Assembly (NCBI RefSeq): GCF_015500095.1
Contig: NZ_CP062983.1
Span: forward strand, 4,402,001-4,466,000
DNA from: Phototrophicus methaneseepsis
Lineage (GTDB): Bacteria > Chloroflexota > Anaerolineae > Aggregatilineales > Phototrophicaceae
Direction: 5' to 3'
DNA: 64,000 nucleotides
Part shown: positions 374-52,879 of the stretch, piece after piece
How positions within the stretch are numbered: the first letter of the stretch is position 1
Layout: each line of letters begins with the position of its first letter
Program-made: the position numbers and the translations under genes
The notes under the pieces: generated by a model
What the model was told of the DNA's origin: nothing
The model's input: only the letters and a program-made list of their open reading frames with translations
Database searches by the model: none

Positions 374-1348
374 CTATTCCGTGATCTGCGCCCGATGGAT
401 CGCAATACGGAGCACACCATCAATCAACCCAGCCAACAATAAGACGATCCCTAACAGCACAATACCCATCAAAACGCTGTAGGGGATCGTCAGCCACATC
501 TGCGCCGCGTGATTGAGGTTCATCAAGCTCAGGCCCCAATCACTAAAAGTAGCGTAAGCCAGCGACACCATAAACGCAGCGCCCTGTGTCATCTGTGATG
601 AACCCGTATTGAGCTGCATAAACGCATAAAATAGTGCACCGTTAAGGCCTATATATCCACCTAGCATGATTATTTGCACGATGCTGGCATAAGCCCGCTG
701 ACGCAGCATCACAGCAACCCACAGGCCCAACGTGATAGCCAAACCCAACATGACTAAGGGTAACAACAGTGCCGCGGTTAGCAGGATAGCCAGCAAAATA
801 ACGCCCCATACAAGCGAGACCTCCGGCGTGATATTCGCCGTCAGCAAATCCAGATATATGCCCCGGAAAGCCATCACCTGATACAACACACCAGCAATCA
901 GCAGCAAGCGCACAACCAGTAATATATAGATGAGATGTCGCACTCGATAGAAGATCGCCACCCATCGCGTGCGCAGGGTCATCTCAGCGCCATATTCAGT
1001 TGCTCGCAGGGCATCCCAGGTTTGATGCCGTCTTTCCGCATTCAGCGTCCCCACACCCAATGAGAATGCAATTCCCCATAACACGACCTGCACCCCACAG
1101 GCTGGATAGTAGAGAATGCGAAAGAGTGCATCAACAAAATGCTCAGTGGATAAAGGCCGTGGCGACCCTAGCGCAGCGAAGAAATACCCTACAAGCACCA
1201 GCATAGAGAGGCACACAACAGAAAAAATGATGCGCACCAAACGCCCTCTGAGCGTTGCATTGGGGCGATAACGCTGATATGCCACACGCAGCAGGGGATT
1301 CGTGCGCTGCATCCATATTGGCAAAGGCCCCACGAGCCATCTCAGCAT
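374..1348 (-). CDS. Multi-pass membrane protein, ABC-2 permease-like, orphan
   Basis: A 324-residue, very hydrophobic protein with about six to eight predicted membrane segments (for example near residues 40-62, 85-105, 135-160, 180-215 and 290-315). A cytoplasmic stretch around residues 105-125 (AERRHQTWDALRATEYG) resembles the ExxxxTWExL segment of ABC-2 exporter permeases, which is the only family clue. No ATPase gene lies beside it. It starts four bases after the addA stop and is therefore probably the last gene of the NERD-addB-addA transcript. A similar orphan protein is encoded at 48564-49487, also starting with an xNPL motif near its N-terminus. Substrate and role are unknown. Confidence 0.7.
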   Translation of the reverse strand: MLRWLVGPLPIWMQRTNPLLRVAYQRYRPNATLRGRLVRIIFSVVCLSMLVLVGYFFAALGSPRPLSTEHFVDALFRILYYPACGVQVVLWGIAFSLGVGTLNAERRHQTWDALRATEYGAEMTLRTRWVAIFYRVRHLIYILLVVRLLLIAGVLYQVMAFRGIYLDLLTANITPEVSLVWGVILLAILLTAALLLPLVMLGLAITLGLWVAVMLRQRAYASIVQIIMLGGYIGLNGALFYAFMQLNTGSSQMTQGAAFMVSLAYATFSDWGLSLMNLNHAAQMWLTIPYSVLMGIVLLGIVLLLAGLIDGVLRIAIHRAQITE

Positions 1349-1352
1349 GTGG

Positions 1353-4300
1353 TCATTCCACTTCGTCTAACACGGTATGGATGGTCGCCTCAAGGTTGGC
1401 AATGGCAGCACGCCATGCCTGCCCTTCAATCACAATATCTCGTGTATAACGTATATAGTGGATATAAACGGCAGGTTCGATATCAAAGCGCGCCAGCCAG
1501 GATTGGGCATAAGCCCCCATCTGCAAGGTAAAATGACGCCGAGCATGTTCAGCGAGGCCCTCAGGCGAGGGCTTTTCCACATAGCTGGTCTTGTAATCGA
1601 CAATGCACCACTGTCCATCATATCGCTGGAAAACCAGGTCAATCACACCGTGAATCAGCCGCCCTTCCATGCGATAGATAAAAGGCAGCTCATGATAGAC
1701 TGGGCGACCTGCTGTTTTAGCTTCCGCGACCCATTGGTACAAATCGCTGTGCATAAATTGATGGAGCAGATCCGTCGCTTCTCGCACGGCTTCGGCTTCT
1801 AAGCGAGGGTCCGTGATGCCTTGCTGCCATGCATATCCCTGCAAGACGCGTTCCATATCGAGTGTGCTCTCCGGCAAGCGCCAATATCGCAGCGCTTCAT
1901 GGACGATAGTGCCGATAATCCGCCCGGTAAGGCGCGGGTTGTGCCTACGGACGACTTCACGAACAGGTGCTTTCGGCGTATCGTAGACATCCGCCATCAC
2001 ATTCACGCGGTATGTCTCTCGATAGCGATCTTCCTCCAACACTGCCGCCAGCAGGTTCTCTAATTGGGATGCATTCATATGATCCAGCACAGCCGTGGGC
2101 TGTTTGGGAACAGCGGCCAACAGCGGCGGCACTTGCAGCATATCATCGCTTTCCAGCGAGAGCGTTGTCATCTGGTCGCTAACTAGCCGACTTGGCAGGT
2201 CATGATCATATTCACGAACAGACGCGTATGCAAAACAATCCGCCGCGCCTGGGATCGGCAGCAGGGCCCCATCCTCACAATCCGTCATGTCGAGTGCTTC
2301 AAGCAGCATGCCCAGCCAATGATCTGCGCTGAAGCCCTCTTTCTTCGCTCTGAAATGCCCGCTCACCAGCAGATAATCCTGGGCACGCGTGGCTGCTACA
2401 TAAAACAAACGGCGATTCTCAGCATCCTCGCGCATAATCTGTAAAGTCTTTGCCTGCCGATACGGGTACGACTCGTATAATTCACCTTCCAGCGTGGTGA
2501 CTTTACACGCGAGGCCCATATCTCGGTCATAGAGCAACGGCGACGTGCTATTGCCCCTGGAGCTACTACCCGCATCAGCTAATACCACCACCGGGAACTC
2601 AAGCCCTTTACTGCGATGGACCGTCATCAAACGCACCGCATCACTGGCATCGAGCAGCGCTTCACCCTCGCGCAAGTCTCTGCTGCTGATGTCATCAATA
2701 TAAGCCGTAAAGTCACTGAGCGCGATCTGCCCGCTCTCCTGAGCAATCTGTAGGAGCTTCTCCACGTTACGGCGGCGACGGGGACCATCTGGCGAGAGCG
2801 CTTGCAACACAGCAAGATACCCCGTCCGGGCCAACGCCTCACGAAGTAGTTCCGCTATAGAGACTCGTCCGGCCATTGCTTTAAGATCACACAGGACACC
2901 ATATGTCAATGCGACCAAAGACTGTGATTCGGCTGTATCGACGCCCATCACTGGCGACTCTGTGGCATAGGCCAGCGCATCCCATAACAGCGTTGGCGTA
3001 CGAGCTTCTGCATCTTGTCTGACTAAACGCAGCGCCAACAACATATCATCGCTAAAGCCGAACAAGGGTGAGCGTAAAGCCGCAGCCAAGGAGAGATTAT
3101 CCGCGGGGTTATAGAGCGCCCGCAGCAGATTAAGCACATCCCAGACTTCCTGACGATCATAATAGCCACGGCCTGCCAACGTCACATAAGGGATACCCAA
3201 GACTTTGAAGACATCTTCATAGAGCGTGACATGGGTCATACCGCGCAGCAAAATCGCCACATCACCGTAACGTATAGGACGATGCTGGCCTATTTCTTTA
3301 TCGAAGATAAGCGTCTCGGCATGGACCATCTGTTGTAATCGCCGCCCAATTTCATAAGCTTCCCACTGGCGACGATCTGAAGCCGGGACATTTGTCGAAC
3401 GCCCTTCTTCATTCGGGATCTGCCCATTAAGCAAGATGAGTTCAAAGGCAGGTTGTGTGGGCATATCTTCCCTGAAAGCGCGCATATCTTTGTCATAGAC
3501 GACTTGATAGCGGCTGACAGCACTGGTTTCGTCACGCGTGAGGAGATGACGAAAGACGCTGTTGAATGTCTGGACAAGTTGACTATGCGAACGAAATGAC
3601 TGCGATAAAGCCACTTCATGGCCGCACTCCCGGCCTGCAATGAGATCGCGCACATCGTTAAACACGCTGACATCAGCACCCCGGAAGCCATAGATGCTCT
3701 GTTTGGGATCGCCCACGACAAACAGGCTGCCGCCTGTATCGAGCGTGGTCAACGATTGCACAATATCCCACTGTGGGCCGTTGGTATCCTGGAATTCATC
3801 AACGAACACATGCTGGAATTCGTTCAGGACATAACGTGCACGTACAGCGGGATAGGTCTTCAGTAGATAAGCTGTCCGCATCTCCAGGTCGTTGAAGTCG
3901 AGCAAGCTATCGCGCTGCTTAGCGGTCTGATAAGCCGCGGCTGTTTTGCTAATCAGCCGCGCCCATAAGACCAGCAGTTCAGCCGCACGTTCATCTGCCA
4001 AACCAGGCATCTCTCCAACAGAGGCGAACACGTCCCGTAATCCGTCACGGAAGATACGTAAATCCTCTTTAACAGATGCAGCGCTTTCCCCCCATACTTT
4101 CTTCGATGGCACGCCGGGGAGCTTCATATTGTTGCAGCAATCGCCAATTACATCGTAAATGACCTGTGCACCACAATCTGGGTTTGCCAGCACAGCATAA
4201 GTATCCGCAACGACCTGCCACGCCTTCGACAGCGTATCATCGCCAGCAGGCTCATAAGCATACTGGTCAATCAGCCTCAATGCCTGCAAACGCAAGTCAT

Positions 4301-50320: not shown

Positions 50321-52879
50321 TCACGATATGGTGCGCGGCACGTGACGCAAGATATTCGTCACCACTTCATAATTGATCGTACCTAACCAGCGCGCGACTT
50401 CATCGGCGGTGATAGCATCATCCCCCTGCGAACCCAGCAGGACGACTTCATCGCCCGGTACAACGCCCGCGATATGCTGCACGCTAACGGTGGCTTTTTC
50501 CATGCTAACGCGGCCAATCAAGGGCGCACGCTGCCCGCGTATGAGGACGGATTGCCAGGAGCGCGGCGAACGCCGTAAACCATCTGCATAGCCGACGGGC
50601 AAAATGGCGATTTTTTCAGTTTCCTGTGTGGTATAGGCATTACCATAGCCGACGTTATGCCCTGCTGGCAGCGTTTTAACCTGTAAAACAGTTGTCTTCC
50701 AGCTTAAGGCCGGGTTGATACCAGGGGGCAACTGCAACCCGGGCGCAGGGGCCATGCCATACATCATCACACCGGGCCGCACCATATCCATATGAAATTC
50801 CGGGCCTTGCAGCACACCCGCTGAATTCGCACAGTGCGCATACGTCACATCAAAGCCGCTGGCGCGCACAGCCTGTACCACACGCTTGAATTGTGCAACC
50901 TGCTCTCTGGTAAAATCGAGGTCTTCATCAGCCACGGAAAAGTGTGTATAAATGCCCTCTAACTGCATATGGCTGAGCGCCGCCAGATAGCGGAACATGT
51001 GCAGCGCATCACGCGCCAGTACGCCCATACGTCCCATACCTGTATCGACCTTGACATGATATTTCAGAGGATCGCGCATATCGCGCACTGCACGGTCGTA
51101 AGCACGCGCCTGCTCCAAATCAAAAATCGTCACAGTCAGATTGGAGCGCACCGCCTGACGGATTGCATGCAGGGGTGTATAGGTCAAAATCAGAATAGGC
51201 GCTTCAATGCCTGCATCTCGCAGCTCTAGCGCCTCAGTCATGGATGCCACCGCTAGATAAGTCGCCCCACTCTGCAAAGCCACATGTGCTGTTGCGACAG
51301 CCCCATGCCCATATGCATCGGCTTTGATAACAGCGCACAACGTCACATGGTCCGCCAGCATATTCCGTATGATGCCAATGTTATCCCCAAGGATTGCGGT
51401 ATCGACCTCAATCCAACTGGTATAGAGCGTTTGCGAGCCGGGGTGTTCGTCTGTTTCTTCCACCTGGGGCATGTAGCGGACTGTATTAGGCTCGTCTTCC
51501 GGGTTATCCAACAGCGCGCGCGTGATATGCTCCATGCGAGCTTCTCGCCCGCCCTTGATGAGCACAATATCGTCCTTCGTCAGATGATAGCGTCGTACAG
51601 CATTCAGCACTTCTTCGACACTATACGCTGAGAAAACGGATTGGGAATCCATACCGTGATCCACAGCAGAGCGCGCGGCCTGGGCCGCCTGAGCGCCTAA
51701 TGTAATGAGCACATCAGCGACCTGTGCCGCCTGAATGCCCACAGCCCGGTGCCCTAGCTGCGTATGATCCGCCAGATCATCCATATCGCCCAGGATAACA
51801 ACGGCCTGATGCTCATATTTGACATCAGAAAGCCACTCAAGCGCGCCATGGGTAGAGATCATATTGGCAGAATAGCTATCGTCAATCAGGGCAGCGCCAC
51901 CTGTACCGCGTAGAGGCGATAAACGGCCCGCGATAGGCGTCAATTTGGTGAGCGCACGCAGGCCCCTATCTAATGGCACCCCGGCATACTGGCCGACTGC
52001 CAAAGCCGCCAGGGCACTATACAGGTGAAACTTACCCAACAACGGAATCCAACGAGCGACGAAGCGCTCACTGCCAAAGCGTAAATCAAAACCTGTGCGC
52101 GCTGTATCCGTTAGGATGTTATAAGCCATCAAGTCAGCGCCGAAGACATCCATCGCGACAGTGCGCACCGGTGCCGTCACAGTCTCTGCCAATTCAGCTG
52201 CCTGGGCATCATCGGCATTGAGCACCACAAGGCCTTGTTCAGGCACGGCTTTGACGAGCATACGATACTCGTCTAACAACTGATTGCAGCTTGTGAACGT
52301 AGAAGGATGATAACAATCAATATGGCAGATTACGGCAATATCTGGCGATGCAATTTCCAACAGATCGGCCATATCACCCGGTTTCTCAACGTCGAACTTC
52401 AAAACCAGGTACTCATCATCTGGGCGCATATTCGCCAGTGAAAGTGGAATGTTCAGCAACCCGCTGACATCTATATCGCCGCCATGCACGCCATATTTCT
52501 GGCTCAGCAGATGTGCAATCGCCTTAACAGCAACCGATTTAGCGGAGGAACCGCTCACGGCGACAATATGCGGTGTGTATTTCTTCAGGATGTACTTTGA
52601 CCATGCGATCATGGCATCAAACGGATCACGTACCATGACGACGGAGACGCCATCCGTCTCACAATCTGGCGGATGCGTGCAAACGACACCCCCTGCACCG
52701 CGCTGGATGGCTTCTTCGATGTACTGGTCTGTATTGCCGCGTGGTGTTTGTAGCGCCACGAACAAGGTCGAACTATCAGCTAAGTAAGGGTCCAGGCAGA
52801 AGTTTGTGAACAACTGTGCGGCTGGTTCCCCAAAGAGTTGTCCGTTAGCAGCATTGAGAAAATCGTAAAGGCTTATCAT
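50321..52879 (-). CDS. MurF-like domain fused to alanine racemase
   Basis: An 852-residue fusion. Residues ~1-470 have the MurF layout, but key motifs are altered: the P-loop reads GSSAKS (110-115) instead of GSSGKT, the catalytic Glu of the ELGxNxxGE motif is K161 (VLKFDVEKPGDM), and the HLxxFGSxExIAxAKxE block with the carbamylated Lys is YHPSTFTSCNQLLDEYRM (190-207). DDSYSAN in the C-domain is kept. Residues ~485-852 are a complete alanine racemase: K519 in AVIKADAYGHG, the catalytic Tyr region GYGNAYTT and RVSMEK. MurF-Alr fusions are known in Bacteroidota. Racemase function supplying D-Ala is likely; ligase function is doubtful. Confidence 0.88.
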   Translation of the reverse strand: MISLYDFLNAANGQLFGEPAAQLFTNFCLDPYLADSSTLFVALQTPRGNTDQYIEEAIQRGAGGVVCTHPPDCETDGVSVVMVRDPFDAMIAWSKYILKKYTPHIVAVSGSSAKSVAVKAIAHLLSQKYGVHGGDIDVSGLLNIPLSLANMRPDDEYLVLKFDVEKPGDMADLLEIASPDIAVICHIDCYHPSTFTSCNQLLDEYRMLVKAVPEQGLVVLNADDAQAAELAETVTAPVRTVAMDVFGADLMAYNILTDTARTGFDLRFGSERFVARWIPLLGKFHLYSALAALAVGQYAGVPLDRGLRALTKLTPIAGRLSPLRGTGGAALIDDSYSANMISTHGALEWLSDVKYEHQAVVILGDMDDLADHTQLGHRAVGIQAAQVADVLITLGAQAAQAARSAVDHGMDSQSVFSAYSVEEVLNAVRRYHLTKDDIVLIKGGREARMEHITRALLDNPEDEPNTVRYMPQVEETDEHPGSQTLYTSWIEVDTAILGDNIGIIRNMLADHVTLCAVIKADAYGHGAVATAHVALQSGATYLAVASMTEALELRDAGIEAPILILTYTPLHAIRQAVRSNLTVTIFDLEQARAYDRAVRDMRDPLKYHVKVDTGMGRMGVLARDALHMFRYLAALSHMQLEGIYTHFSVADEDLDFTREQVAQFKRVVQAVRASGFDVTYAHCANSAGVLQGPEFHMDMVRPGVMMYGMAPAPGLQLPPGINPALSWKTTVLQVKTLPAGHNVGYGNAYTTQETEKIAILPVGYADGLRRSPRSWQSVLIRGQRAPLIGRVSMEKATVSVQHIAGVVPGDEVVLLGSQGDDAITADEVARWLGTINYEVVTNILRHVPRTIS

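Follow-up and report, generated by a model that had tools for sequence, protein, structure and literature searches.

The window, that is, the whole stretch of 64,000 nucleotides analyzed here, belongs to the genome of Phototrophicus methaneseepsis, which is a single contig of 5,631,885 bases. On the reverse strand it carries a gene in which a MurF-like half and an alanine racemase (Alr) half lie in one open frame, with the following features:

50321..52879, reverse strand: MurF-Alr fusion gene, 852 aa from an ATG start (open reading frame list and family profiles)
51500..52879, reverse strand: MurF-like half, very probably a pseudo-ligase, aa 1-460 (TIGR01143, 239.2 bits; fold match 4qf5)
52535..52555, reverse strand: P-loop SGSSAKS, aa 109-115, TGSSGKT in E. 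coli (alignments)
52397..52399, reverse strand: K161, column of E. coli MurF E158 (alignments)
52307..52309, reverse strand: H191, kept, column of E. coli H188 (alignment)
52265..52267, reverse strand: Y205, column of E. coli K202 (alignments)
51419..51499, reverse strand: interdomain linker, aa 461-487 (pLDDT below 50 at 471-486)
50330..51430, reverse strand: alanine racemase half, about aa 484-850 (TIGR00492, 353.5 bits; fold match 4y2w)
51323..51325, reverse strand: K519, column of the PLP lysine of the racemase (racemase motif alignment)

The MurF half scored 239.2 bits on TIGR01143 (241 in the genome search) and did not reach the cut-off of 288.6; the Alr half exceeded the TIGR00492 cut-off of 168 with 353.5 bits, and the entire protein gained 408.3 bits on NF008897, where the cut-off is 804. 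An AlphaFold model had a mean pLDDT of 85.6 and a pTM of 0.57, which leaves the placing of the two halves uncertain. In a fold search, model residues 1-459 resembled MurF 4qf5 (Z 39.0 over 442 residues, 3.8 Å) and residues 478-849 alanine racemase 4y2w (Z 41.0 over 368 residues, 2.9 Å). The decayed half is accordingly predicted to keep the three-domain MurF fold.

Residue columns were read from a 111-row alignment together with the solved MurF structures of E. coli and P. aeruginosa. The alignment with E. coli MurF (1gg4) is gapless across the catalytic blocks and pairs GSSGKT with GSSAKS, VIELG with VLKFD (K161), and AKGEI with EYRML (Y205); with P. aeruginosa MurF (4cvk), the pairing of these columns is identical. 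The Walker consensus GXXGK(T/S) and the presence of a carbamylated lysine in MurE are described in PMC3829189. The P-loop of the fusion departs from GxxGK(T/S), as it keeps the lysine and the serine and has alanine in place of glycine. Both the metal-site glutamate and the carbamylated lysine are missing, their columns being occupied by K161 and Y205, and the UDP motif DTR of the N-terminal domain reads DPY. The MurF half retains the P-loop lysine K114, H191, and the C-domain motifs R319, D333/D334, and KGG..ARME. We take K202 of E. coli MurF to be the carbamylated lysine and likewise assume the roles of the other residue numbers of this enzyme. Since the alignment with the solved MurFs is gapless through the catalytic blocks, the catalytic residues are replaced in place, which rules out that they are merely displaced. 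A sequencing error is unlikely, as the closest relative, from the same genus and 66% identical in the MurF half, also has lysine in the E158 column. Our alignments confirm the preliminary description of this locus with regard to the decay of the MurF half, the GSSAKS loop, and K161. The block of the carbamylated lysine, which it had called unrecognizable, is alignable, with Y205 at the K202 column. The MurF half is therefore very probably a pseudo-ligase that would keep the MurF fold and be incapable of ligation.

The racemase half bears the columns of the PLP lysine and the catalytic tyrosine as well as the signature motifs, as had been described; CMDQ of the fusions of the class appears as SMEK (GRVSMEK in the window fusion). 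K519 occupies the column of the PLP lysine. SMEK was also seen in nearly all racemases examined from the window's family, fused or unfused. A search of the P. methaneseepsis genome for a stand-alone alr, as had been proposed, retrieved a single PF00842 match, which is the fusion itself. Other PF01168 matches were rejected as a second alr; they are presumably of the YggS and D-threonine-aldolase types. The fusion is thus the only racemase found in this genome. In a phage collection, racemase-only matches occurred in the listed 3 of 38 records.

The preliminary description had reasoned that a separate true MurF must exist if the fusion were a pseudo-ligase. TIGR01143 gave five matches in the genome, none exceeding the cut-off: the fusion, a 554-codon frame, and MurE-, MurD-, and MurC-like frames. 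No canonical stand-alone murF was found in this search. The 554-codon frame encodes a MurF relative with transmembrane segments replacing the N-terminal domain, which we refer to as TM-MurF:

L006:1042-2688 (G000:C1:3079889-3081532), reverse strand: TM-MurF, TIGR01143 match in a 554-codon frame, 548 aa from ATG

It reached 206 bits on TIGR01143 and has intact motifs (TGSYGKTTTK, EMGMYVPGEI, HLERAGS, AKYEI). Hydrophobic segments at 8-26, 117-135, and 149-167 occupy the place of the MurF UDP-binding domain, which is missing together with the KGSR motif; the closest solved structures are MurFs. The four key residues, defined as columns K111, E158, H188, and K202, were intact in 20 of 21 TM-MurFs. 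A further MurF-type gene whose key residues are intact was hence found, as anticipated, but it is of a membrane type without the N-terminal domain and not a textbook murF. The gene directly upstream (L006:2726-3514, reverse strand) is presumably alpha/beta-hydrolase-like; G335 has a similar sequence behind TM-MurF in a single open frame (L220, frame 1220-3742).

Among 61 genomes, comprising that of P. methaneseepsis and 60 relatives, TM-MurF (E ≤ 1e-120) and soluble MurF were complementary: 52 genomes had the former, five the latter (G040, G041, G044, G047, G050), none both, and four neither by this search (G021, G037, G055, G060). TM-MurF is linked to ddl. In 43 of the 52 genomes the two share a contig and are no more than 10 kb apart; in 24 ddl follows TM-MurF directly, at most 200 nt downstream, and in P. 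methaneseepsis the distance is 2.9 kb. In eight of the remaining nine the best ddl match was on a different contig, and G030 had no strong one. For g17, another genus of the window's family that contributes 32 of the 108 order genomes of at least 90% completeness, 31 of the 32 genomes had no TIGR01143 match other than TM-MurF at E ≤ 1e-52, and ddl was above cut-off in both genomes searched for it. A search of 251 genomes of the phylum yielded 25 genomes with a match at E ≤ 1e-60, of which 23 are TM-MurF-bearing genomes outside the class and the other two are the window genome and G015; at this threshold TM-MurF was not found in the class genomes sampled outside the order. Among the matches listed, 16 of the 23 out-of-class genomes had no other MurF-type match and six had a fusion (G312 in addition a stand-alone frame); G436 had fusion pieces. 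In G253 and G298, TM-MurF lies alongside mraY, murD, murC, and murB. Its position as sole match in g17, the ddl linkage, these neighbors, and the out-of-class distribution suggest, at the level of sequence, that TM-MurF very probably makes the pentapeptide.

The fusion was present in 47 of the 61 genomes, split and partial matches included, and, beyond the order, in at least 47 of 189 genomes of the class. In 41 of these 47 it was accompanied by another match at E ≤ 1e-60, most of these genomes thus having a stand-alone MurF as well; the second MurF matches listed for 28 class fusion genomes were frames of 465-720 aa. The fusion is therefore common in the class, and its ligase residues are mostly intact there: all four key residues were found in 31 of 36 class fusions (L160-L195), one more having an X. 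They were intact in only 5 of 36 order fusions that coexist with TM-MurF and in one of seven fusions (one of the seven being truncated) that coexist with TM-MurF in other Chloroflexota. Five of six order fusions without TM-MurF were decayed as well (one intact); the decay thus accompanies TM-MurF, yet extends beyond it. In a tree of 110 rows from which the catalytic columns were left out, the order fusions formed one clade (SH-aLRT 99) nested among the class fusions, and the fusion predates the order. The fewest state changes on this tree were 4 for K111, 4 for E158, 11 for H188, and 7 for K202. The P-loop lysine is kept in 36 of the 42 order fusions having that column, and many different residues occupy the lost columns. 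Four fusions of one family from other Chloroflexota (f95), outside the 110-row tree, lack the histidine and lysine blocks, in what looks like a separate loss.

The comparison covered fusions of Chloroflexota. A contig scan with the single fusion protein gave no matches; when an alignment served as the query, 39 loci were retrieved. These were selected with a single N-terminal pattern, so that conservation there is biased. The fusion of the window's family, with a MurF half 44% identical, also occurs in L137 and L149, whose records name a Bacteroidetes bacterium and Pleurocapsa minor and are probably mislabeled or mixed assemblies. Synteny across 40 fusion loci pointed to no partner. A partner from gene neighborhood was rejected, as the commonest neighbors, which we take to be tgt-like, SCO1-like, and glycine-cleavage genes, are not cell-wall genes.

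In order to assess constraint on the MurF half, we compared dN/dS between the two halves. Values ranged from 0.025 to 0.2 among the pairs listed, also in pairs without catalytic residues. In L143/L144 (dS 0.25), with arginine in the P-loop and proline and serine at the H188 and K202 columns, dN/dS was 0.115 for MurF versus 0.098 for Alr; the corresponding values were 0.093 and 0.050 in L040/L044, which lost the P-loop, and 0.025 and 0.030 in L137/L152. The alignments thus indicate purifying selection on the MurF half in several decayed pairs. Of the 30 pairs listed, some of them near-copies, 29 showed a higher dN/dS in the MurF half than in the Alr half, so some relaxation of constraint on the former is possible.

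Among 26 sequences of the window's family, 38 class-conserved positions were lost, including the serine and arginine of the DSR motif, N136, E158, H188, and K202; the column of the first P-loop threonine was also less conserved. Another 23 positions were newly conserved (e.g., Q14, P71, N254, R272, W349, R403), part of which may stem from the family being less widely spread than the class. Mean conservation in family and class was 0.56 and 0.53 for the N domain, 0.47 and 0.53 for the central domain, and 0.48 and 0.50 for the C domain. Conservation of the DSR serine and arginine of the N domain was 92% and 100%, respectively, among class fusions and 42% for each within the family. Since the DSR motif survives in some members of the family and the P-loop lysine in most, nucleotide or UDP binding is possible in such members.

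The PLP lysine is also replaced in six order fusions (L042, L053, L054, L056, L057, L058) and in that of G548 (L241), and the frames of these seven, 843-872 aa, are still open. A second racemase match was found in G041, G052, G057, and G060 and none in G037 and G050; in G050 (L056; 87% complete) and G037 (L058; 92%) the racemase-dead fusion is the sole Ala_racemase_C match. The pair L056/L241, which has the double loss in common, is 68% identical in the MurF half (dN/dS 0.11) and 60% in the racemase half (dN/dS 0.16), with dS near saturation. In some sister families catalytic lysines are gone from both halves of a protein that continues to be conserved, which speaks for a role other than catalysis.

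Purifying selection and family-specific invariants suggest that the MurF half most likely works non-catalytically. We consider it probable that it is a conserved pseudo-ligase serving as a non-catalytic scaffold or allosteric domain of the only racemase, with TM-MurF as the ligase. The MurF half would have kept its fold and ceased to ligate as ligase residues eroded repeatedly within the order, and the membrane-embedded TM-MurF, which is encoded near ddl and in most genomes of the order stands in for the soluble stand-alone MurF, would add D-Ala-D-Ala. The MurF half could then position or tune the racemase in a supply line from D-Ala via Ddl to MurF. A bolder version, which we regard as doubtful, is that MurF-Alr is mainly a non-enzymatic organizer of precursor supply and that the membrane MurF adds D-Ala-D-Ala to a lipid-linked precursor rather than to soluble UDP-muropeptide.

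An unlikely alternative is that the MurF half is a relic preceding the only racemase, redundant, functionless, and on its way out. Some genera have indeed lost the domain altogether: racemases without it, found in seven genomes of the window's family (G002, G011, G017, G019, G023, G033, G035), nest among fused ones (21-row set, SH-aLRT 98, 1 to 4 changes), so it is dispensable in these genomes. The fusion of G047 is split over two frames, and the varied residues at lost columns and the faster MurF half would fit a relic as well. Against this speak the low dN/dS whether or not catalytic residues remain, the family-specific invariants, and the open frames even of fusions lacking the PLP lysine. 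Less likely still is a domain that binds UDP-MurNAc-peptide or a nucleotide and thereby tunes the racemase, as the preliminary description had suggested. The widely retained P-loop lysine and the predicted fold would agree with such a sensor, but its canonical form, relying on the UDP/ATP pocket, is disfavored because the pocket residues listed above are among those lost, the window copy having DPY and SGSSAKS; a ligand might bind in another mode. That the fusion is an active MurF by an altered mechanism, TM-MurF having another job, is very improbable: the fusion does score higher on TIGR01143 (241 versus 206 bits, both below cut-off) and TM-MurF does lack the UDP domain and KGSR, but TM-MurF is the sole MurF-type match in nearly all g17 genomes, where ddl is present in both searched, and lies near ddl and, in G253 and G298, other mur genes. 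Overall, the earlier observation is confirmed and its interpretation partly supported, namely in the pseudo-ligase reading, the existence of another MurF-type gene, and the purifying selection on the domain in several decayed pairs.

Mur ligases are essential enzymes. A Mur pseudo-ligase carried on a racemase across many genera, together with a membrane successor, would, if true, imply that the cytoplasmic synthesis of wall precursors is open to rewiring. The forms present in Chloroflexota (intact, ligase-dead, doubly dead, domain lost) make up a natural series for testing non-catalytic Mur roles, and P. methaneseepsis, as a cultured isolate, is experimentally testable.

In the open-licence papers searched, we found neither a membrane-embedded MurF nor any pseudo-ligase of the Mur type described. 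The bifunctional MurF/Alr family NF008897 (PRK11930), typical of Bacteroidota and presumably active, has domain order and approximate length in common with the window fusion, which in contrast falls far below its cut-off and has lost the ligase residues. With TIGR01143 and the MurF structures 1gg4, 4cvk, and 4qf5 it shares the predicted fold and the C-domain motifs, whereas the E158, K202, P-loop Gly/Thr, and DTR columns are replaced. Compared to TIGR00492 racemases, its racemase half has the catalytic motif columns and differs in carrying a pseudo-MurF half and the family's SMEK in place of CMDQ. The Chloroflexota class fusions, among which those of the order nest, have the same architecture but mostly keep the four key residues and a second MurF-type match, unlike the decayed window fusion. 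The latter is thus a probable variant of the known MurF-Alr fusion, in which a conserved pseudo-ligase would be paired with a membrane-embedded MurF as the true enzyme.
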